From positions 6,703,501 to 6,767,500 of the forward strand of contig NC_090711.1 in the NCBI RefSeq assembly GCF_040954835.1: DNA of 64,000 bases. Reading direction: 5' to 3'. Source of the stretch: Lepisosteus oculatus. Lineage: Eukaryota > Chordata > Actinopteri > Semionotiformes > Lepisosteidae. The position numbers and the translations under genes are program-made. Of this stretch, positions 26,927 through 61,760 are shown one piece after another (the first letter of the stretch is position 1; each line of letters starts with the position of its first letter). The notes under the pieces were generated by a model, which was given only the letters and a program-made list of their open reading frames with translations, had not been told where the DNA came from and ran no database searches.

Positions 26927-27240
26927 AACCGGCAACCTACTGAAGCTCAATAGGTGTGAGTCTGGTGAGTACCTGGATGTAGGGGCGTAGCCACTGGTGG
27001 GCCTGGTGATTGATCCTAGGCCTACCCAATCAGTCCAAAGTAATTTAAGATTTTTTTTCCACTTGTTTACGTTATATGATTTGCTTTTTTAATGTTACGT
27101 GTTTGATTTTTTCTCCATCGTATGTGATTTGCTATTGGCTCGCTGTATCTTTTGTGACCAATAAGACAATAATGTAAATATCGTGGGGCGGTGCATGCGT
27201 AGCCGTAGCCTAATTGGCTATCGTTGACATCAGACTCTTA
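26927..27240 (+). mobile_element. SINE B head fragment joined to a DNA-transposon-like fragment
   Basis: CTACTGAAGCTCAATAGGTG and GAGTACCTGGATG are a mutated 5S-like head. At 26978 it changes abruptly to TAGGGGCGTAGCCACTGGTG, a sequence I associate with a common fish DNA-transposon end, with GGGGCGGTGCATGCG further on (27184). The second identity is tentative. Confidence 0.35.
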
Positions 27241-27585
27241 GAGCTATCTAGCTCTAGGTTTTTGGTGTATTAGCCAACATGTACACCTGTAGATGACCAG
27301 ACCAGTCCTGAAATAAATAAGACACAGAGTTGCTACAGGCATCTTGGGTTTTAAGGAGTACAACCTGGCTTCCCGAATACAAGTGTTTCTGGACCGCAAG
27401 GGGCAGTGCACACGCGTTTGCTTGTAGCAGCTCGATACATGCTCGACCTGTAGGAGTTCAGCACGAAGAGGTTCTACAATTTCTCCTGTAAACAAATTAC
27501 AAGTTTTGGAAAGCATGAATAGCATTAACATAATATTGACAGAGAGAAGCGAGTGTGCATTTTGCAGATAACTATTCAGATCGCC

Positions 27586-27709
27586 TCTAAATGCCCGACG
27601 TTTAGAGAGCTAAAATACATCCAAAGTACTGTAATACGTCTATAACAATTCAGTGTTTTACATAGCTCTCTAAACGTCGTTCACTTAAAAATACTGCAGG
27701 GCATTTAGA
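27586..27709. repeat. 124-bp imperfect palindrome, MITE-like
   Basis: CGACGTTTAGAGAGCT (27596-27611) pairs exactly with AGCTCTCTAAACGTCG (27664-27679), and TCTAAATGCCC (27586-27596) pairs with GGGCATTTAGA (27699-27709). The two arm pairs are nested with an unpaired stretch on the right side. It could be a small foldback element. Confidence 0.6.
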
Positions 27710-28346
27710 CGGGGTCACTGGAGGTCAAAGTCACCGTGCATAGTCATGTGATCGCTCTTTTACAGTTTAGCTCGTACCCTTAACATTTTAAAGACAATCA
27801 ATATCCATAAACATATGAGCCTCCTTGATGGGAATAATACTAAGATATGACGCATGCCAACAAGTTAACCATCTATGACATAAACCTGTGGTTGTAATGT
27901 ATGTAAAATCATCGTGATTGTAAGATCTATCTAGGTTTTTATTTTCTAAGGCACATTCTGCTTTTCTTTCCCTACCGTGACACGCTGTTGCCAAATGCGT
28001 AACTGTGGGATACCATCGCGACAAGACCTCCCCAGCATGTCATGATAGGAACCTCATATGGCATGTATATTGCGGCAGTGTATATCACGACTGGCGCCTT
28101 GCTTTCATGCCACCCTGGCACTGCTGTGCAATAAAGGTCTCATATCAGGACATGATATACCCAGATAGGACGTGTCATGATATATGGACTTTGTGTCGCG
28201 TCATGGGGTCAGCATATCCTGTCAGGGTATGTCCTATTGCAACATATGGACTCCATGTCGCGACATGAGGGCGGGGCTTTATGAAGGGGTATGTCATATC
28301 TCAATATACGGGCTTCCTGTGGCGACATGGGCATGACAGTTTTTGT

Positions 28347-28745
28347 CATATCGCGATATATGGACTCTATGTCGCGACATGGGGGTGGGGCATTTTTGCC
28401 GGGGCATGTCATATCGCGATATGCGGGCTTCATGTCGCGACATGGGGGCGGGGCATTTTTGCCGGGGCATGTCATATCGCGATATGCGGGCTTCATGTCT
28501 CGACATGGGGGCGGGGCATTTTTGCCGGGGCATGTCATATCGCGATATGCGGGCTTCATGTCTCGACATGGGGGCGGGGCATTTTTGCCGGGGCATGTCA
28601 TATCGCGATATGCGGGCTTCATGTCGCGACATGGGGGCGGGGCATTTTTGCCGGGGTATGTCATATCGCGATATGCGGGCTTCATGTCGCGACATGGGGG
28701 CGCGGCATTTTTGCCGGGGTATGTCATATCGCGATATATGGACTC
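28347..28745. repeat. 63-bp tandem array of TCGCGA-core palindromes (copy 1)
   Basis: Each unit holds two perfect 14-bp palindromes, CATATCGCGATATG and CATGTCGCGACATG, whose starts are 21 bp apart, then a G-rich spacer of 28 bp containing GGGGCGGGGC and TTTTTGCCGGGG. CATAT-type palindromes begin at 28347, 28410, 28473, 28536, 28599, 28662 and 28725; from 28347 the interval is 63 bp. Two units carry CATGTCTCGACATG, which breaks the dyad. The unit length is a multiple of three, so long reading frames run through on both strands; these are not genes. Confidence 0.92.
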
Positions 28746-28928
28746 AATGCCGCGGGAGTGGCCATGACAGTGATGCGCAAATCGCAATGGGTATCGCGAT
28801 GTGATCGTGATGCCCGCACGTCTATGCTATCGAAGTCGTGACTGGAAACCAATGGATGTGTTACTGTATATCCAGCGTGCTCATACAGCACACACGGTAC
28901 ACACAGAACTTCCGCTGTGGCGCTTTAC

Positions 28929-28996
28929 CCAATCAGAGTGTCGATTCTCACTCTTCACCCAATCGCGGCCCGGACTGTTCGGGGGTTTTAGCCAAT
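28929..28996 (+). promoter_or_regulatory. triple CCAAT-box module in copy 1
   Basis: CCAATC occurs at 28929, 28959 and 28992, all on the plus strand, 30 and 33 bp apart, embedded in GC-rich sequence. Co-oriented CCAAT boxes about 31-33 bp apart are typical of NF-Y-driven promoters. No TATA box follows. The module faces the zinc-finger gene 1.8 kb downstream. It is preserved in copy 2. Confidence 0.5.
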
Positions 28997-29639
28997 CACG
29001 GGGCTGAGAGCTGTTCAAGCTAGCAGCGCCAGGTGGATCGGCTTGTTTAATGTCAATGAGAATTGGCTTTTAACAGTGGGTTCATGATTTTTGGGTCAAA
29101 TGTTTTTCTTAACAGGGAATTAAATGAGCGTAGTCAGAAATGTGAGAAAATGCATACACGTACAACACCTACAGGATCAGAGGGGATACTACAGTGTTAA
29201 ATGGTTACAAAAGGAAAAAGAAAAATAGGTTTTCAAAAAGAGAAATCAGCAGGAGGCTCATAGATCTACCTCCTATTTACTCAGTTTTAAGAAGATAACT
29301 CGTCACTACACTCCTAAAATCTCAGCAAGAATTTTTGACTGCAGACACGGTGCTGTCTGTAAATAGAGACGGCTTTTTAAGTAACTCTAAAACATAAAAA
29401 TAAGACTTACAAAGCTTAAGAATCTGTAAATATTAATACAACTAAATGTAGCCTACTCTGAGGTTTACGCATTTCACAGTGCAATTACGAACTGTATGAA
29501 ATTAATGTACCGTTCTGTTTCACGTAGGCATGTTGGTTGCTGGGATATGTAGTTTAGTACAGTAACTCATACATTTGCAGCGCTCAGCAATACAAGATTA
29601 TATCCATAAAATAACCTATCGTAACCTTTATGGGGTAGA

Positions 29640-30846: not shown

Positions 30847-31812
30847 ATGGCCCATTTAATTAGAGATGGCATCTCCAAAGGAGTCATTCACCGAAATTTA
30901 TTAGAGGACACAAGAGTGGTAAAAATTAAAGAAGACCCGGATATGGGAGATGTGGGAAACAATTTAGATAAAACCTTGTATCTGTGCACTGATTGCGGGA
31001 AGAGTTTCAGTACAATAGGCCAGCTTGAATCCCACCAACTACTGCATGGCTATGGGAAGCTCCCATTAGGGAATTCTGACTGTGAAGAATCGGTCACTCC
31101 GAGAGGCCCCTCTGGGAAAATCCCTGGATCCCAATCACCGTTTACCTGCAGTGAATGCGGAAAAGGCTTTTCTAAGCGCTGGTACCTGAAAGAGCACCAG
31201 CGGATCCACTCCGGAGACCCCACCCATCGCTGCCTAGTCTGCGACAAGATTTTCCTCCAAGCAGGGGACCTGAGGAAGCACCAGCGCACGCACACGGGAG
31301 AGACCCCCTACAGCTGCCCTCACTGCGACAAGAGCTTTGCCCAGTCCGGGGGGCTCAGGAACCACATCAGGACCCACACCGGGGAGACGCCCTACCGCTG
31401 TGAGGACTGCGGCAAGCGTTTCAGCCAGTCGGTGCACCTGAAGAAGCACGTGCGGATCCACACGGGCGAGACCCCCTACCACTGCGACGTGTGTGGCAGG
31501 AGCTTCAAAAGGGGGGACACCTTCAAGATCCACCAGCGCGTGCACACGGGAGAGAACCCCTACCAGTGCAGCGAGTGCAACAAGAAGTTCAGTCACCTGG
31601 GCAGCTTAAAACTACACCAGAGGGTTCACACACGAGAGACGCCTTATCATTGCACTGTGTGTGGGAAGAGTTTCTCTCAGTCAGGCACACTTAAAAAGCA
31701 CAAGAGAATTCACACCGGAGAAAGACCTTTCATCTGTCAAGTGTGTGGTAAGGCTTTCACTCAGCTGCCACATCTTAAATCACACCTGAAGGTTCACAAC
31801 AAGAAGGCTTAA
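30847..31812 (+). CDS. C2H2 zinc-finger protein, nine fingers, single coding exon
   Basis: 321 aa, intact, presumably a nuclear DNA-binding transcription factor. Residues 1-45 have no KRAB, SCAN or BTB signature but contain VVKIKEDPD, a SUMO-consensus-like motif often seen near the N-terminus of fish zinc-finger proteins. Finger 1 (C47-H67) stands apart, separated by about 33 residues from the tandem block of fingers 2-9 (from C101). All nine have C-x2-C-x12-H-x3-H. Linkers are mostly TGETPY rather than TGEKPY. Helix residues -1,2,3,6 for fingers 2 to 9: KWYE, QGDK, QGGN, QVHK, RDTI, HGSL, QGTK, QPHS. Start: a 3' splice site precedes 30798 and an in-frame TAA at 30826 excludes upstream extension within this exon. 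No orthologue recognised. It sits between DHX35 and the MAFB-side desert, which suggests a lineage-specific arrival. Confidence 0.9.
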   Translation: MAHLIRDGISKGVIHRNLLEDTRVVKIKEDPDMGDVGNNLDKTLYLCTDCGKSFSTIGQLESHQLLHGYGKLPLGNSDCEESVTPRGPSGKIPGSQSPFTCSECGKGFSKRWYLKEHQRIHSGDPTHRCLVCDKIFLQAGDLRKHQRTHTGETPYSCPHCDKSFAQSGGLRNHIRTHTGETPYRCEDCGKRFSQSVHLKKHVRIHTGETPYHCDVCGRSFKRGDTFKIHQRVHTGENPYQCSECNKKFSHLGSLKLHQRVHTRETPYHCTVCGKSFSQSGTLKKHKRIHTGERPFICQVCGKAFTQLPHLKSHLKVHNKKA

Positions 31813-36472: not shown

Positions 36473-50679
<14,207 letters not shown>

Positions 50680-50770: not shown

Positions 50771-51465
50771 AGGTTTATAAATGCATACCCAAAATACGTC
50801 TTTCAAGGTTTTGCTTTAAGCTTTAGACTTTAGACTTTTTCGGTGTTTCTTCCTTTTTCAATACTTTTTTTTTTGCGTGGCAGTGGTACACCTTCCATTG
50901 AATCATATTTTGAAAGGTGGTTTCAGTGCAAATGGAAATTCGTTTAACATTTTAAGGACAATCAATATCCATAAACATATGAGCCTCCTTGATGTGAATA
51001 ATACTAAGATATGACACGTGCCAACAAGTTAACTATCTATGACATAAACCTGTGGTTTTAATCTATGTTAAATCACTGTGATTGTAAAATCTATGGTTTT
51101 TATTTTGTAAGGCACGTTTTCTTTTTCTTTCCCAACCGTGACACGCTGTTGCCAAACGCGTAACTGTGGGATAACATCCCGACTAGACCTCCCCAACATG
51201 TCATGATAGGGACCCCATGTATATCGCATCTATATCGCGGCAGTGTATATCACGACTAGCGCCTTGCTTCCATGCCACACTGGCACTGCTGTTGCAACAA
51301 AGGTCTCATATCAGGACATGATATACCCAGATAGTACGTATCATGATATATGGACTTTGTGTCACCACATGAGGTCAGCATATCCTGTCAGGGTATGTCC
51401 TATCGCAACATATGGACTGGACTCCATGTCGGGACATGGGGGCGGGGCTTTTTGCTGGGGTATGT

Positions 51466-51951
51466 CATATCGCGATATGCGGGCTTCATGTCGCGACATG
51501 GGGGCGGGGCATTTTTGCCGGGGTATAACATATCGCGATATATGGACTCTATGTCGCGACATGGGGGCGGGGCGTTTTTGCCGGGGTATATCATATCGCG
51601 ATATATAGACTTCATGTCGCGACATGGGCGTGACTTTTTTTGGTCATATCGCGATATGCGGGCTTCATGTCGCGACATGGGGGCGGGGCATTTTTGCCGG
51701 GGTATGTCATATCGCGATATACCGACTTCATGTCGCGACATGGGCGTGACTTTTTTTGGTCATATCGCGATATGCGGGCTTCATGTCGCGACATGGGGGC
51801 GGGGCATTTTTTGCCGGGGTATGTCATATCGCGATATACGGGCTTCATGTCACGACATGGGTGTGACAGTTTTGTCATATTGTGATATATGGACTCCATG
51901 TCGGGACATGGGGTGTGGGCGTTTTGGCTGGGCATGTCATATTGCGATATA
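51466..51951. repeat. alternating 63/53-bp tandem array of TCGCGA-core palindromes (copy 2)
   Basis: CATAT-type palindromes start at 51466, 51529, 51592, 51645, 51708, 51761, 51825, 51876 and 51938, giving steps of 63, 63, 53, 63, 53, 64, 51 and 62. The short unit replaces the G-rich spacer with a 'GGGCGTGACTTTTTTTGG' type spacer. The CATGT-type palindrome lies 21 bp after the CATAT-type one wherever checked. The 63+53 alternation is a higher-order repeat not seen in copy 1, which has only one short-spacer transition (near 28330). Confidence 0.9.
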
Positions 51952-52208
51952 TGGACTCAATGTGGTGGCAGTGATGCTCCAGTCGCAATGGGTATCGCGA
52001 TGTGATCGTGATGCGCGCAGTCCTATCGTGACATGCTATTGGGAGTCGTGAACGCGCTGTGGATGCCATGACATTCTTTGTCTGCTATTACCTCAGTGCG
52101 ACTTCTCTTAGATCGATCAGTAATTGGAAACCAATGGATGTGTTACTGTATATCCAGCGTGCTCATACAGCACACACGGTACACAGAACTTCCGCTGTGG
52201 CGCTTTAC

Positions 52209-52275
52209 CCAATCAGAGTGTCGATTCTCACTCTTCACCCAATCGCGGCCCGGACTGTTCGGGGGTTTAGCCAAT
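52209..52275 (+). promoter_or_regulatory. triple CCAAT-box module in copy 2
   Basis: CCAATC at 52209, 52239 and 52271, all on the plus strand, spacing 30 and 32 bp, in the same sequence context as copy 1. It points away from DHX35, towards 52.3-53.1 kb. Confidence 0.5.
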
Positions 52276-52854
52276 CACAGGGCTGAGAGCTGTTCGAGCT
52301 AGCAGCGCCAGGTGGCTTGTTTACTGTTAAGAGAATCTATTTTTTAAATGCTTTGCAAAATAACTACATCGGCTTATTTTTTAACGTCTTTATTGATTCA
52401 CAATATCCCGTACTCTTCGAAATAAATACATTTTTAAATACATTTTTATTTGCAATATAACTGCTTTCTGTAATAAATCCATGGCATTTGAACAATTTTA
52501 ATCAGATATTTAAGGCAGGGGAAACACCTTCTGATCGTACTTCAAAAATAAATAGAATTGTAAAGTCTGTGATCATTATATTATTGTGCTCGTGCTTTCA
52601 ATTTATTTTTGTATTGTTAAATGATATCGATCTTGAAACTAATACCTAAAAATGTGAATATGGGCTCTCGTGTTGTACCAGTGGTAATTCGAGAACATGG
52701 TTAAAAAATTAAAAGAAAACACCTAACCCAATGAACTAACATAGTAACTTTTCCCTAAATGCAAGACTGTTTTATTTGTGTAAAGGCTGCAAAGTCTGTG
52801 GTCGACTGATCAAAAGATCACAACTGAAAGATCTGGTGGCGTGACTTTGCTGTT

Positions 52855-53058
52855 ATGTACGATCAGACAGACTCGGAAAACAAATTGCCCCCATTGTTTT
52901 CATCACAATCAGGAGTTCCGGTACCGAGTTTGTTGGTACCTATAAACTTCCTTGTAGATAGTTACGTGATAACCCGTAAAACAAGGCGCTATATCTGGGA
53001 AACGAAAGCAGCACAAACGCTACTTACAGCAACACAAACCGGCAAAAACGCAGCATTA
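52855..53058 (+). CDS. possible unrecognised first coding exon
   Basis: An ATG in a moderately CpG-containing stretch opens about 68 codons (begins MYDQTDSENKLPPLF) and reaches a good 5' splice site, GCG|GTGAGT, at about 53067. It lies 530 bp beyond the CCAAT module of the dispersed element, which points toward it. No family recognised, no partner exon found. It may be chance. Confidence 0.15.
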
Positions 53059-53754
53059 ACGATTGCGGTGAGTTTCGTCGTTTGTGCTGTTTGATGGGCG
53101 GGTGGGCAACCACGGAGCAGGACAAGCAAACATGTCTGGGTCATTACATTGCAGACTGCAGAAGACTCGACTTCACCTGAGGATCTAACACAGGCACCCA
53201 CACCTGTGTCTTCAGAGGGCAGGTGTGTCCCACGCTGTATTCTACACCGAGGACTGGCCGGAAACACAAACATACTGTGAGCTCATCGCTTCATGTTTGC
53301 GCATAAGACCCCTGTAAATAAAAACACACGGATAATGACAGTTTATCAAAGAATTCAGATATATGTTCACTTCTGTTATGTGAAAATAAAAAAAAAATGT
53401 TTCCAATATTGCCGCGGTCCGCAGGTGTGAGACGGTGGACTTTCCAGTGTTGCTTCTCTGATGTGTTATTTACTACCCGCGACAACCTTGTACGTAGTGC
53501 TGTTTTTAACTCGCATACAAAACTTGCCAAGGAGTGGAAAAAAATAGATTACAAGAATTTGTAATTCACAAACAATGTATATTCAGGACAAATACAAATA
53601 CAAATTCCCCAAGAAATCAGAGAGAATGTCACTGACTCCCTGGATCCCAGAAGCACAGTCTGCACCTGGTCTTTCCTGGAATGGCATACCCCTAAGGAAA
53701 ACCATGTTGCTGCTTTAATTGGTGTTAATAGGTGGTGCTCTTCTCTGGACCACT

Positions 53755-55543: not shown

Positions 55544-58500
55544 TTATTTTAAGCACCTCGATCGTGATAAGGGACCCAAGCGGACCGTCTCCCTCAGTAC
55601 CAGCTGGTGGCGGCCGCACTGCTCCTGTGTCTTCCTGAGCTTGTAGGCGCCAGGGTTCAAGGCCAGGTTGGTGAGGTCCACCAGCTCCCTCCGCTGGGAC
55701 AAGAGAGCTACCATGTGGTCCAGCTTGGAGCGGATAGTGGAGTAGTGGTACTGCCGCTCCTTGGTCAGTTTGTTGAAGCAGTCTCGCAGAGAGCCGTCAG
55801 GGGACGGAGGCGAGTGTTTGACAGGGGACCGTCTGTAGCCCTTGGGTTGCTCCCTGGGAGGAGCGGAAGGCTGGGAACCAGATCCAGAGGAAAATGAGCC
55901 CTTGCTATCCGTTTGGGTGGCACAAGCTGAGAAAGTAGGTGCTTCTTCCTGATTGGCTAGATCAGTCTGCATGCTGCTTTCCACCACAGGAATGAAGGTT
56001 TGTGTGGAGGCATGGCAGGTCACAGGGACACAAGGTTCTCCAGCTGCTGCCACCTTGGCAGAAGAAGGCACAGCAACATCTACACCTGTCAGAGCATTTG
56101 CAGCAGCAATAACATCCTCCATGTGGTTTTCCTCCATCCAGTCATCTCCAATGGTGGACATTTCTGACACTCTGCTGCCTTGGGGGGACAGCTCTCCAGC
56201 ATCATCTTCATCATCTCCAGGCAGCACAGACACTACTGGAGCTTTGCTTGGTGTGCTGGAAAACTGGCTGGTCCTAGGAGGCTCCTGAGCAGGAGGTACC
56301 TTGAGAAGGACGTGGTCATAGATCCCACTGCTCCTGCGACTGGGGGCAAGCTTGGGACTGATGGGTTTAGACTCGGCGTAGAGGACCCGGAACTCTTCGT
56401 CAAAGCTCTCGGAGATCTGGCCTGACAGTTCGATCAAGTTGCTGCTGTTAAGCTTCCCATCCGTCCAATCAAACCTAAGAAAAGCAAGTAATACAAACAA
56501 GAAAAAAAACAATGTTAGTTATCTCTGAACAATCCCTATTCTCCCCCATGACAAAGCAAGATCCCACTGCAGTAATGTGAATCTATTCAACTGAAACAAT
56601 TAAACATTTCCCAACAGAGCCACTCTACTAAAGCACAGGCAAGAAGAAAATAAACTTATAATTACCTGTATGAACCTGTTGCCACCCTGTTTCCATCAAT
56701 CAACATGAACCTCTCGTGAACTTTTCCAACAATCTTTGCACCAGACCGCATATAGAACGTAGCTCCAGTGATGGTTCGTACCCTCATATGCTGTAATATA
56801 TAATGAAAATTAAAAAATCCCTTAAACATAGATAACTTGTTCTTTCATTTACAAAGGGTAACATTTCCTTGGACAATATTGTGTTATAAAAGTTATGACT
56901 CACACTTCATAAAAATCTCCCAACTGGCCAGTGAACTTTCCAGAACATATTTTTAACTTAATCATTAATGCCTTGTCAAAAGCCAAAGTTGATGCAAAAA
57001 TGAAATACAATGATTTGAATGCTAAACTTGTCCTTGATCATTAATCTATTCACTATCAGTAAGTCACTCTACCTGACACTCTGGAACATATCCCAGAACC
57101 ACAGGATGCACAGAGTAAATGAAAGCACATAAGTGCTCTTCCAAATGGGAATTGGGATGCCAGGCCACAGAAAAAGAAACAATTTGGAGTTGTCCGTCAT
57201 CCCAAGACAGCACGTCTCCAGGAGGTGGATGGACAGCCACTGAAAATCTTCACAAGCATTGGGAGCATCCTCTCATGGGGCAGTGCAGTGGCTCTGTGGC
57301 TAAGGATCTGCGCCTGTGGCTGGAAGGTTGCCGGTTCATATCCTGCAGCCGGCAGAGGAATCCTACTCCGTTGTGCCCCTGAGCAAGGCTCTTAACCCCA
57401 ACTGCTCCAGGGGTGCCGTATAAATGGTTGACCCTGCGCTCTGACCCCAAGCTTCTCTCCCTCTCCCACTGTGCGTCTCATGGAGAGCAAGTTGGGGTAT
57501 GCAAAAAGACAAATTCCTAATACAAGCAACTGTGTATGGCCAATAAAGTGATCTTATCATGCTTATGCTGTAAGCTAGCTCAGGTTCACAGTGAGCTGGA
57601 ACCTAAGCAGGTAGAGACAGAGGGCAAGGCAGGGTTACAGCCTGGATAGGACACCAGCACAAATTCACACATTTCCACTTGTAGTTCTCTTGAGTGCATA
57701 AGCAACATCAGTGCCCATCACAGCCTTGACTATCAGTGTTACACAGAGGTAAAACAAGAGCTCGTACTTGGAGATCCTCCAGCTGGACGTCCAAGTTCTT
57801 GCACATCTGCAGGAAGGAAAACACACAGGACTGATCCAACAGGATGTAGACGGGAACCTGACGCTTGATGCAGGCCTCCTGGATGTCTCTGAATATGTCC
57901 ACATCCGTGAAAGAGTCTGTTACTAAGGCAATGACCTGAAATGCCAAGGAAAAGAGTATGGTTTTAGGCTTTGCAAATCGAGATGCCCGACACTGTAAAA
58001 ACTGTAAAATGGGCTGGTCATAATACACTAAGCAGGATTTGTCTTGCTCATCTTACATTAAGCTACATCTAGAGATGAGCCACTGTGAAATGAGGTTATG
58101 ATCCTGGCCACTGTAAAGAGACCTGAAGAAAACATTATGAATGTGTCCATTGGGGGAAATCAGCTTAAAATTAAAAAATTGATTAAGAGTGAAAATATAA
58201 TAGTCCAAGTCTACATCAATAGCTGACAGAGCACATACATCATATTATTTACATTGGGTGTTCAGGATCAGAGGTTATATGAAGAAAAAACCCACACATC
58301 AGCATAATGAGCATAGCTCACCGTCTTCATGAAAACGATCTGAATGCTCAGAGGTCATTCAGGGTTAACATGTTGACAGCTTAGTGTCTGGGGCTCAGAG
58401 AATATCCGAGATGGGGCAGAGAGAGTGGTGGAGTGGCTTATGCAGCAATAAACGTCTTGTTGACATTCACAGACCTGATGGTGGACAACATTTGTCTGGA

Positions 58501-61500
58501 CTTGGAGTAACATGTCGCTCTAGCTGTTGTGTTGTTCAAGGTAACTGCCACCAGGAAGTTCACCACCTGGCAACAGCTGAACAGGGCAGATGGCAGAACA
58601 CCCTACAGCCACCTGGCCAGGTTAGTGTATGAGCGCTCCCAGGACTGGGATAAATCTCAGGAGGTCATACTGGATACATTCTTTGAAATGTTTCATTATT
58701 TCATTCCAGAAGTGAAAATGCATTTGGATTCTTTGGATTGTATTTGCATGGACATGCTCTAAAATTTCATTTGACATTTGTCTAAATATGTTGATTAAAT
58801 CGATTAGAACCAATTGTCTCATTCCTTCTGTGCATCAATATAGCCTCCATGCCTCAACTTGCTTACAGAGCTGGAGTACAATTTAGTCAAATATAAAATA
58901 CCAAATACCAATACTTAAAATATTTTACACAAACCTGAAACTTCCCTCTGTCTTCTTTTATATTCTGAAAATGTTTAGATGTGAATCTCGGCACAGACAA
59001 ATCACATTGAAAGGCAGACTTCCATCTAGTCTTCTAGTTGTGACATTTTTAATTTACTAGTAAAGCACCTGCAAGTAGTGTCCTGTCCATAGTATGTGTA
59101 GACTAAACATATTTGCAAGTGGGAAAAAAAAAATCGCTATCATTTCTGGGGAGTGTTCAGCATGTTGGAACATTTTACTCTTAGCAAATAACTTCTACAG
59201 GAATTTCCAGTCTACTAGTGTTAATATTTTATACCCTTCTGGAAATTTGTTCACTTACTGTACATTCCAGAGAAAAGAGGGAAAAGAATGCATAATCGAC
59301 AATAGACAGCAAAAGACAACTCCTACAAATTCCAAATGTGAAAGTGCTGCAATTTCTGACTTGTCCTAAAATAATAGTGAAATACAAATCATCCATGTAT
59401 GAACGACGGCCTTGACTATAACTGCCTAAGACACTGTGGGCTTTTCATGTTACAGTGCCCTGGGCTGGTAATTGACAATCCAGGTGTCCAGAGTGATGGG
59501 AACACATTCTGTCTGATAAGCAATTGTGATTCATATGGCAGTGAACATGAGGCATGGCACAAATATGTTCAAACATGTCTATACTCCCTTCCTGTCATTT
59601 TTTTAGTCCCACTTTTTATAAACCCTTGCATTTACATCTTAAAACGTTATACAAAGAGTGTGAGCAATGAAAGTCCTTTAAATATGTCACTCACCTACCG
59701 CATGGTTGTTTTGTGCACACAACTTAATAGCACTGAAACTTTTTAGGAATATTTTTTCCACAAATTTTAACAACGAGAATCGAATAGAATGAATAAAAGG
59801 TGGGAAAAAATAGGAATGCTGGTGTATCAGTACAAATAAAGCTTCTCAAGAGTTTGTTGCTGGCAATTTACCAATACTTCAGCACAGAAGTGTAGAAACT
59901 GGGGTTTTTTTTCAAGCTGGCTCCCAAATAGCTATATCATCTAAGCAGAACACGTGTGGTTTTTACCTATGGAGACATCTGAAAGATCATGTATTGACTG
60001 GTATATAGGATTGTTAAAATCGTATAATCATGTTCCATGGTTATAAGAATGGTAAAAAGCACACTGTCTAGGTTTCTGGACAACAACTCCACTGGTAATA
60101 CCATATTCCTTAAAAATACAATCAAAAGCAAAAAAGGTCAAATCAAAATAATCAGAACGTGTTGACAATCATTGTTGTGCCTGATTCCGCGGGATTATTC
60201 TACAGGGAACGCTGGGTGTCATCAGTACAAATTTCAATGTCCCGCTGTCTGTTCTTAAAATCAATGACTTTAAATGCGCTTTATTGACCCATGCTGTTAA
60301 GGCCTCTTCTCCCATCACCATAATCGAGATGCTTGTAACCCGGCACTAATTGAAGTACAGGCCAACTCTTAAGCACATCACCTGCGTGATTTATGAAAAA
60401 TATATCGCGACGATAATGTAGTATTATCACTTCAAACAACGCACAGATAAAATTGCTGCGGCTCATCAAGTGAGAAAGGATTTAAATTTTCCACTGCTCA
60501 TGCGTCTTAACGAGATTTGTTCCTCCAGTGACTACAGGTATTCTGTGAGCTGTAACAGAATATTTAACGTACATTTCTAGGTGAGTGCTAGGGTGTGGGT
60601 TATCCTCCTTGACCTCCGCTGTTATATCGATCCGGATAGTATACAGCAAGGTCAAAAATGACATTTTACAATGCAATATTTGTAAATTGTAAGCGAAGTT
60701 CAAAACCGGTTACAGTATTATTTGTGGGGGTGTCGCGTATCTGTATACTTTAGACTGCACGTCTGTTGTGCATGAGGTCACATTCGTGCGAAACTTTTAA
60801 TTCACATTTACTGTTGCGCCTTGCCCTGGCCCATAAACTCAAAATAGCATTTTCGACCGACCACAACCGGCCGCGATCACAGAAGACGCCGTCTTGACTT
60901 CTCACTCCTTTAAAATCTTCCACGCTCCTTTGGTAAACGTTTTACTGCAGATAGAAACCGGAACTAACGCTGACAGTGTCATAGCGACCACGACTGAGAT
61001 TAGTAACAGTACCACTTAAGCCAATGTGGGTGTTAAATTGTTACCTCTTTTGCGCTTCTTATCATTCGCCTAGCAGCCTCCTTGCAACTATAGATGCATT
61101 CACCATAGCTGGGCTGAAAGTGAGCTACAGCCCGAGTGACTCCTCGGAATGAGCCGGCGGTGAAGGCCGGCCAGCCTATTTCCAAGAGCGGCGGCTCTAC
61201 GTCCGAGACCTCGGGAAAGTAGGTGACAGAGGAGCAGTCCATCGAGCTGCTCACGGACTGCTCCATGCCCGCATCCTCTCCGCTCAGAGAGACGTTTTTA
61301 GGGTGCACAGCCGAGTCCATAATCAGTCTGATTTCATCGCTGGAAAGGAAATTGGGTATCTTCTCTTTCTTTAAAAATTCCACATAGGACTCTTTGCCCC
61401 CAGAGATCAGCTCTTCCAAAGCCAGTCTGTGCGCTTCGCTGTACAATTCCTGGGGACTCAGGTTATTCCTGCACCGGGTCGGGCCCGGGATGGGAAAATC

Positions 61501-61524
61501 GTCGAGGCACTGAGACAATGCCAT
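55544..61524 (-). CDS. FAM83D: FAM83D (CHICA), mitotic spindle and CK1-anchoring protein, 4 coding exons
   Basis: Coding exons on the minus strand: 61524-61045, 57935-57768, 56790-56666, 56474-55544. They join in phase to 567 aa plus TAA; human is about 585. FAM83 proteins carry an N-terminal DUF1669 domain (a phospholipase-D-like fold) that anchors casein kinase 1. FAM83D takes CK1-alpha to the spindle through HMMR. Family landmarks seen: [17 protein letters not shown] near the N-terminus, [60 protein letters not shown] and ESKPISPK. The C-terminal helix [20 protein letters not shown] (from 487) aligns with the conserved C-terminal helix of FAM83D. The middle is Ser/Pro/Gln rich and poorly conserved. 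The ATG at 61524 ([11 protein letters not shown]) was chosen because orthologues begin MAL; an in-frame ATG lies 27 codons upstream (61605). The PLD-like HxK motif reads HERFMLID, with Arg for Lys. Confidence 0.96.
57278..57560 (+). mobile_element. SINE C copy in FAM83D intron 2
   Basis: Full-length by comparison with the other copies: head GGCAGTGCAGTGGCTCTGTG, B box GGTTCATATCC (57332-57342), body CTTAACCCCAACTGCTCC, end CAATAAAGTGATCTTATC. It is in the orientation opposite to FAM83D. Confidence 0.85.
57585..57672 (-). mobile_element. SINE A 3' fragment in FAM83D intron 2
   Basis: GAGCTGGAACCTAAGCAGG, GGGCAAGGCAGGGTTACAGCC and GGACACCAGCAC correspond to the reversed 3' part of SINE A as seen at 54000-54080. 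It directly follows the SINE C copy. Confidence 0.6.
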
Positions 61525-61624
61525 GCTAACTCTGAACCCTACGCTCAGCACAGTATCGCGCGTTACCAGTTTTCTGAGATCATGACTTTTTTTTTTATCT
61601 GGCATTTTAAACTCGAACAAACCC

Positions 61625-61760
61625 AGCCCACGGCAGCCGGCATTGGCTGAGCGAAAGCCGCAAAACCGGTTCCACCAACTTTACACAGGCACATAAGACT
61701 GCCTCCCGCCGGGAATGGGTGATGATCATTGGCTCACGGTTTGAATTTGTAGGCAAACAA
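61625..61760 (-). promoter_or_regulatory. FAM83D: FAM83D promoter with CCAAT boxes and cell-cycle-type motifs
   Basis: On the minus strand there are two CCAAT boxes (61646-61642 and 61732-61728), a TCCCGCC E2F-like element between them (61704-61710 on the plus strand) and a CHR-like TTTGAA at 61740-61745. NF-Y boxes with CHR elements are typical of G2/M genes, which fits a mitotic spindle protein. The start codon is about 120 bp downstream. Motifs are seen; their function is inferred. Confidence 0.5.

Follow-up and report, generated by a model that had tools for sequence, protein, structure and literature searches.

The window analyzed here, a 64,000-nt stretch of gar genomic DNA, contained 29 occurrences of TCGCGA, compared with a mean of 1.85 (sd, 1.09; largest, 5) over 100 shuffles. 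All but one of these (28 of 29; the remaining one lay at 60405) fell within two homologous blocks, at about 27785 to 29063 (copy a) and 50944 to 52336 (copy b). The blocks are larger than, and contain, two arrays of 14-bp dyads. The parts annotated for the two copies are as follows.

26980..27596 (+): left arm of a hAT-like host element, starting with TAGGGGCGTAGCCA, which carries the array element of copy a
27707..27753 (-): fragment of the terminal inverted repeat in inverted orientation; the left end of copy a is rearranged
27754..28005 (+): AT-rich left internal part of the element, copy a
28006..28253 (+): left margin of array a, decayed and with degenerate dyads
28254..28346 (+): edge of array a, made up of older 62- and 52-bp units whose dyads are mainly imperfect
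28347..28738 (+): core dyad array, copy a, in 63-bp units with 13 dyads (CATRTCGCGAYATG) at 21/42-bp spacing
28849..29063 (+): CCAAT/promoter-like segment, copy a, with CCAAT at 28849, 28929, 28959, and 28992
50944..51424 (+): left internal part, copy b, its left end truncated at TTAACATT
51425..51951 (+): dyad array, copy b, in 63- and 53-bp units
52125..52336 (+): CCAAT/promoter-like segment, copy b
52337..52957 (+): right AT-rich part, copy b, without a long ORF
52958..53118 (-): remnant of the right terminal inverted repeat, copy b

Judged against other genomic copies, both window copies are truncated, copy a near 29063. Elsewhere in the window, a stop-free ORF for nine C2H2 fingers was found at 30847-31812, ~1.8 kb past the point where copy a ends, and two open frames matching the SACK1 domain (a FAM83-type gene) were found on the minus strand at 55544-61680, downstream of copy b. 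An ARAGORN call of tRNA-SeC at 44849-44943 (minus strand) had no support from Rfam, for which there were no matches at the gathering threshold, and is probably a chance or repeat-derived match.

TRF delimited the array of copy a at 28344-28737 (63-bp period, 6.3 copies, 96% matches) and that of copy b at 51425-51951 (periods of 63, 53, and 116 bp). The dyad cores are TATCGCGATA and TGTCGCGACA; both dyad types are palindromic, and they differ by one symmetric pair, A:T to G:C at positions 4/11. An earlier note on this DNA had described two perfect 14-bp dyads in each unit. The dyads are present, but their perfection was overstated: of the 13 dyads in 28347-28745, 8 match at 14/14 and 5 at 13/14, and both dyads are perfect in only three of the six full units of copy a, with two units carrying CATGTCTCGACATG. 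The dyads, coordinates, and spacings that it had claimed were otherwise recovered, with centre-to-centre spacings of 21/42 bp all along 28347-28738 in copy a and of 21, 42, and 32 bp in copy b (exceptions, 43, 30, and 41 bp). Its observation that the dyads are spaced at whole helical turns also held within the window: at 10.5 bp per turn, offsets ranged from -1.5 to 0 bp in copy a and from -1.5 to +1 bp in copy b, corresponding to vector lengths (R) of 0.975 (16 dyads) and 0.926 (18 dyads) with the first edge dyad as reference. CpG observed/expected values were 1.29 and 1.43 in the arrays versus 0.44 in the window. A trimeric origin of the unit (63 = 3 x 21) was considered and rejected; the first two 21-mers agree at 17 of 21 positions, their agreement with the third is 4 and 6 of 21, and the shuffle P value was 0.70.

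The arrays belong to a dispersed family. In the searched genome (1.2 Gb, 813 contigs), CATATCGCGATATG was found at 231 exact places and its reversed control at none. The first clusters among the CATATCGCGATATG matches listed were fetched as 20 loci of 10 kb each, and 20 further copies of ~3.3 kb each were picked by similarity to the right part of the element, a search in which 40 of 164 candidate places were scored (identity, 91 to 100%). Together with the two window copies, these form a set of 42 copies, 20 of which were selected for a dyad. The right part was recovered from each of the initial 20 loci; 17 of them also had the left internal part, which was missing in L016, L017, and L023. Dyads lay upstream of the same 3' segment in all 40 fetched copies (20 of them dyad selected), and the number of dyads matching at least 11/14 ranged from 5 to 24 per copy across the 42. 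The dyad-pair pattern had no matches in the viral contigs and genome contigs collections, and neither did the CCAAT-segment pattern in the viral contigs collection. In the available excerpts of the literature, two papers on bacterial MarR contained TATCGCGATA while other matches to the dyad sequences were unrelated, and excerpts on zinc fingers in fish and on transposons and minisatellites (including PMC10547256) yielded analogues only.

The element is enclosed by terminal repeats, between which lie, from left to right, an AT-rich part, the decayed edge of the array, the dyad array itself, the CCAAT segment, and a second AT-rich part. Fuller copies measured 2,271 bp (L014, 4451-6721) and 2,342 to 2,395 bp (three others); their inverted terminal repeats start with AGCTCCGTGAAGTTGCCCC, and the element termini are AGCTCCGTGAAG, the ends being AGCTCCG inverted repeats. 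A 210-bp terminal query matched in both orientations in 24 of the 40 fetched copies and not at all in L028 and L033, and short fetched stretches may have lost an end; genome-wide, the terminal-repeat search returned 828 candidate places, of which 40 were scored. By eye, a 9-bp target site duplication was exact in L014 (CAAGGTAAA) and in L005 (CAGAGAAAC, where the boundary falls one base inward of the anchored point), imperfect in L040 (8/9) and L037 (7/9), and not clearly present in 10 of the 14 copies with both ends anchored. The longest open frames in the four copies checked comprised 135 to 184 codons and ran through the array. Some 500 bp or more separate the array of L014 from either terminus, an internal and not a subterminal position. 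The copies form a dispersed family of non-autonomous DNA transposons, ~2.3 kb in length and bounded by long terminal inverted repeats, with target site duplications of 9 bp; the array is a minisatellite inside them.

Two other assignments of the element were rejected. TTAA ends of the piggyBac/Kolobok kind had been hinted at by the window copies, yet most other copies run on through the TTAACATT point; a promoter of an LTR retroelement with TG...CA ends does not agree with AGCTCCG inverted repeats and, in some copies, a 9-bp duplication. A genome-wide search with a single model of the MULE transposase, PF10551, gave no match at an E value of ≤0.001 (8 of 8 candidates scored), and therefore the element was not filed as a MULE. 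Extra inner pieces of the terminal repeat were present in some copies. Some copies (L017, L010, L009, and L032) carry terminal-repeat copies ending like GGAGCA|GGACAAGC or GGAACA|GGACATG, and such endings suggest that the element also exists in longer or self-nested versions.

Many copies are nested in a second element. A left flank (...GTAAA) was common to 15 of the 40 fetched copies because the array element sits within a carrier repeat, which spans 3428-7346 in L014 and is represented in the window by its left arm. The carrier ends are CAGGGGCGTAGCCA and TGGCTACGCCCCTG, which we take to be of the hAT type. In agreement with CAGGGG...CCCCTG termini and an 8-bp target site duplication, the flanks of the L014 carrier are gtgccaat and gtgccagt (7/8 matching, by eye); this likeness to hAT elements is a feature of the carrier and not of the array element. 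Duplication was weaker in L018 (6/8) and L020 (5/8), also by eye. The array element seems, from the shared flank, to occupy one fixed site in the carrier, the nested composite having been amplified as a unit. The family has spread partly as a passenger within the hAT-like element.

Over nine segments of the element, non-CpG divergence from the segment consensus was roughly uniform, at 0.048 to 0.075. CpG decay, counted as C>T/G>A, varied from left to right: 9.0% in the inner left terminal repeat (ratio to other C/G, 1.7), 3.6% in a left segment with a single CpG (1.1), 11.4% in another left segment (2.8), 11.3% at the array edge (2.7; the zone homologous to 28006..28253, 34 copies), 7.8% after the array (1.8), and 3.9% in the next segment (1.1). 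The lowest value of the nine, 2.1% (17/815; other C and G, 68/2,694; ratio, 0.8), was that of the CCAAT segment, and to its right the values were 5.2% (1.2) and 4.0% (1.1). Decay is therefore low across the whole right half, with the CCAAT segment lowest. The simplest reading of this pattern would be that the CCAAT segment sits in a domain which, like active promoters, escapes methylation in the germ line, a reading made less specific to the CCAAT segment by the low decay further right. Two CCAAT boxes were intact in 37/39 and 38/39 copies, compared with a mean 5-mer intactness of 0.79, and some non-CCAAT 5-mers of the segment were equally intact. Dyad CpGs carried C>T/G>A changes in 64/852 and 66/944 cases (130/1,796, or about 7%), which means weaker protection of the dyads than of the CCAAT segment, at 2.1%.

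The suggestion that dyads are better conserved than spacers was only partly sustained. Non-consensus bases made up ~0.10 of dyads, 0.21 of the 7-bp spacer, and 0.33 of the ten bases after dyad 2, but three subtype columns, shared by descent, explain most of the excess in the 7-bp spacer, and the counts are biased towards intact dyads, which were sought by similarity (partner dyads at offset 21 with a match of at least 7/14; 202/287 and 178/218 anchors kept). Inner A/T positions of the dyads were changed in 14/852 and 19/944 cases versus a flank rate of ~5%, a low figure favoured by the use of an intact partner as anchor and by homogenisation of the array. Within full units of the window copies, the rate for spacer2 (0.055) was close to that for dyads (0.032), which further weakens the claim. 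Changes within dyads were mostly one-sided, yet several symmetric pairs showed double changes above independence: 23 versus 8.4 at positions 1/14 of dyad 2 (20 complementary) and 12 versus 5.0 at positions 7/8 (5 complementary). This excess could stem from shared descent or from decay at CpG.

Whole-turn spacing was borne out across the family, in that 513 of 545 adjacent spacings (18 to 56 bp, 42 copies) lay within 2 bp of 21, 31.5, 42, or 52.5 bp; 18 of the 39 integer spacings in this range (46%) would qualify by arithmetic, and the spacings are not independent data, the units being tandem copies and the elements sharing ancestry. Exact dyad2-dyad1 pairs numbered, genome-wide, 249 with a spacer of 25 to 29, 8 with 19 to 24, and 4 with 30 to 36 (spacers of 19 to 36 covered); in the fetched copies and the window, they numbered 18 (spacer, 16 to 18), 1 (19 to 24), 62 (25 to 29), 4 (30 to 36), and 1 (39).

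The best explanation, to which we assign a probability of roughly 0.55, is that of a minisatellite in a non-autonomous transposon, lying as an upstream activating array before a CCAAT promoter and having inherited its spacing. The CCAAT segment would be the promoter of the element, presumably unmethylated in the germ line, and the dyads would form an enhancer-like array upstream of it. Their putative reader would be a protein recognizing TCGCG/CGCG, with a BEN-domain factor, e.g., BANP, as a candidate; a dimeric CGCG reader may be involved. The 21/31/42-bp spacing may have come about by copying a two-dyad unit in tandem, with long and short spacers that differ by ~10 bp.

Selection may instead have kept the 10.5-bp phase in the lineage, the dyads being required on one helix face by a dimeric CGCG-reading protein, but we regard this as unlikely. 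It would fit the clustering of family-wide spacings at 21, 31, and 41 to 42 bp (of which just three basic lengths are independent) and the finding that spacers diverge by 20 to 25% in sequence from their class consensus while most lengths stay within 1 to 2 bp; by eye, at least two unlike sequence types of short spacer share a length of 17 to 18 bp. Per substitution, net length changes of 3 to 9 bp were also rarer in spacers (8/1,024) than in flanks (17/516), a comparison inflated by spacer substitutions that include many variants shared by descent. Per base, however, phase-changing indels, whose depletion relative to neutral sequence would mark a helically phased regulatory array, were not depleted: 9 of 217 spacers were out of phase (1.65 per kb; six spacers re-joined across pseudo-dyads, spacings of <24 or >55 excluded), compared with 21 indels of out-of-phase size over 10,085 aligned flank sites (2.08 per kb; P = 0.70), the flank figure coming from 24 of the 37 left-part and 39 of the 41 right-part copies placed and setting single indels against net spacer length. 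Random pairs of spacers, with pseudo-dyads still split, differed out of phase in 35, 13, 14, and 14% of cases across four divergence bins, a frequency similar to or above that of flank windows (14, 15, 12, and 3%). With out-of-phase change near the flank rate, ongoing selection on phase is not evident, and the proposal of the earlier note that phase is kept finds no support on this point. In our view the phase comes from inheritance and shows no visible upkeep, although the common length of the unlike short spacers leaves some latitude for constraint on the source lineage. Doubtful to a greater degree is the fuller picture, in which a CCAAT promoter free of germ-line methylation would be preceded by up to ~20 helically phased CGCG dyads, acting as a same-face lattice on which a dimeric CGCG reader keeps the promoter open; if it were true, the many copies, partly spread by the hAT-like carrier, would be ready-made regulatory modules across the genome.

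A lesser but real prospect is that the minisatellite is neutral, expanded by slippage or unequal exchange, in which case the dyads would have no role and the neighbouring promoter alone would matter. The wide range in dyad number, the decay of dyad CpGs, and phase changes near the flank rate all agree with this. Set against it are the presence of dyads, next to the same CCAAT segment, in all 42 copies examined (20 dyad selected and two from the window), the symmetric 4/11 change that leaves both dyad types palindromic, and the symmetric double changes above independence, for which shared descent could nevertheless suffice. It is improbable that the dyads are transposase-binding sites needed for mobility: arrays occur in every copy examined and the family has moved, as its target site duplications attest, but the array of L014 is distant from either terminus and the genome gave no PF10551 match. 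An array serving as the promoter of a zinc-finger gene family, duplicated together with its genes, is scarcely credible. The finger ORF downstream of copy a had raised this idea, which is largely refuted by a C2H2 pattern match in only 3 of the 20 ten-kb array loci, and the ORF list has no finger ORF downstream of copy b.

Comparison with the closest known systems, drawn from excerpts of the papers cited, places the transposon-borne array near several of them. Maize Mu has long terminal inverted repeats of about 215 bp (PMC2774946), and the array element resembles Mutator-like elements in its long terminal repeats and in a 9-bp duplication (exact in two copies); it differs in the lack of a PF10551 match in the gar genome and perhaps in its AGCTCC termini. 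In the U3 region of human ERV9 LTR12, 5 to 17 tandem enhancer repeats of about 41 nt occur with NF-Y sites (PMC11853044). Both are mobile elements in which a tandem array adjoins a promoter, putative in the gar element, and NF-Y/CCAAT sites, whereas the gar element is a terminal-inverted-repeat transposon with CCAAT outside the units and with 63/53-bp units bearing CGCG dyads. The LTR12 of ERV9 is, by analogy, the nearest functional counterpart. The CGCG element, or BANP motif, TCTCGCGAGA occurs in CpG-island promoters (PMC6192621), and a TCTCG-to-TCGCG change reduces binding by the BANP BEN domain slightly (PMC10206803); since the loss is slight, BEN-domain proteins are candidate readers. A CGCG palindrome close to a CpG-rich promoter-like segment is common to both, but the gar dyads are flanked by TAT/TGT and not TCT and are arrayed, not single, and the consensus TCTCGCGAGA is not matched by either dyad core. 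Tandem repeats within, or derived from, an inverted-repeat element are described for a Porphyromonas gingivalis MITE (PMC4596501) and for Tetris (PMC4079207); such minisatellite-bearing MITEs and foldback elements differ in host, and the excerpts mention neither dyad phasing nor a promoter.

Across the dispersed family, dyad number and spacer length vary naturally while the adjacent CCAAT segment stays constant. Should a CGCG reader be recruited by the dyads, the copies would constitute a natural dose-and-phase series with which to test phasing and the escape of a promoter from germ-line methylation; if they recruit none, they would be a case of apparent helical phasing arising from inheritance alone. 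The copies listed cluster in a few megabase-sized regions, at 11.6-13.2 Mb of C8, 9.3-10.6 Mb of C22, and 4.5-7.4 Mb of C16, and also at 38-41 Mb of C5 and 41-46 Mb of C6.
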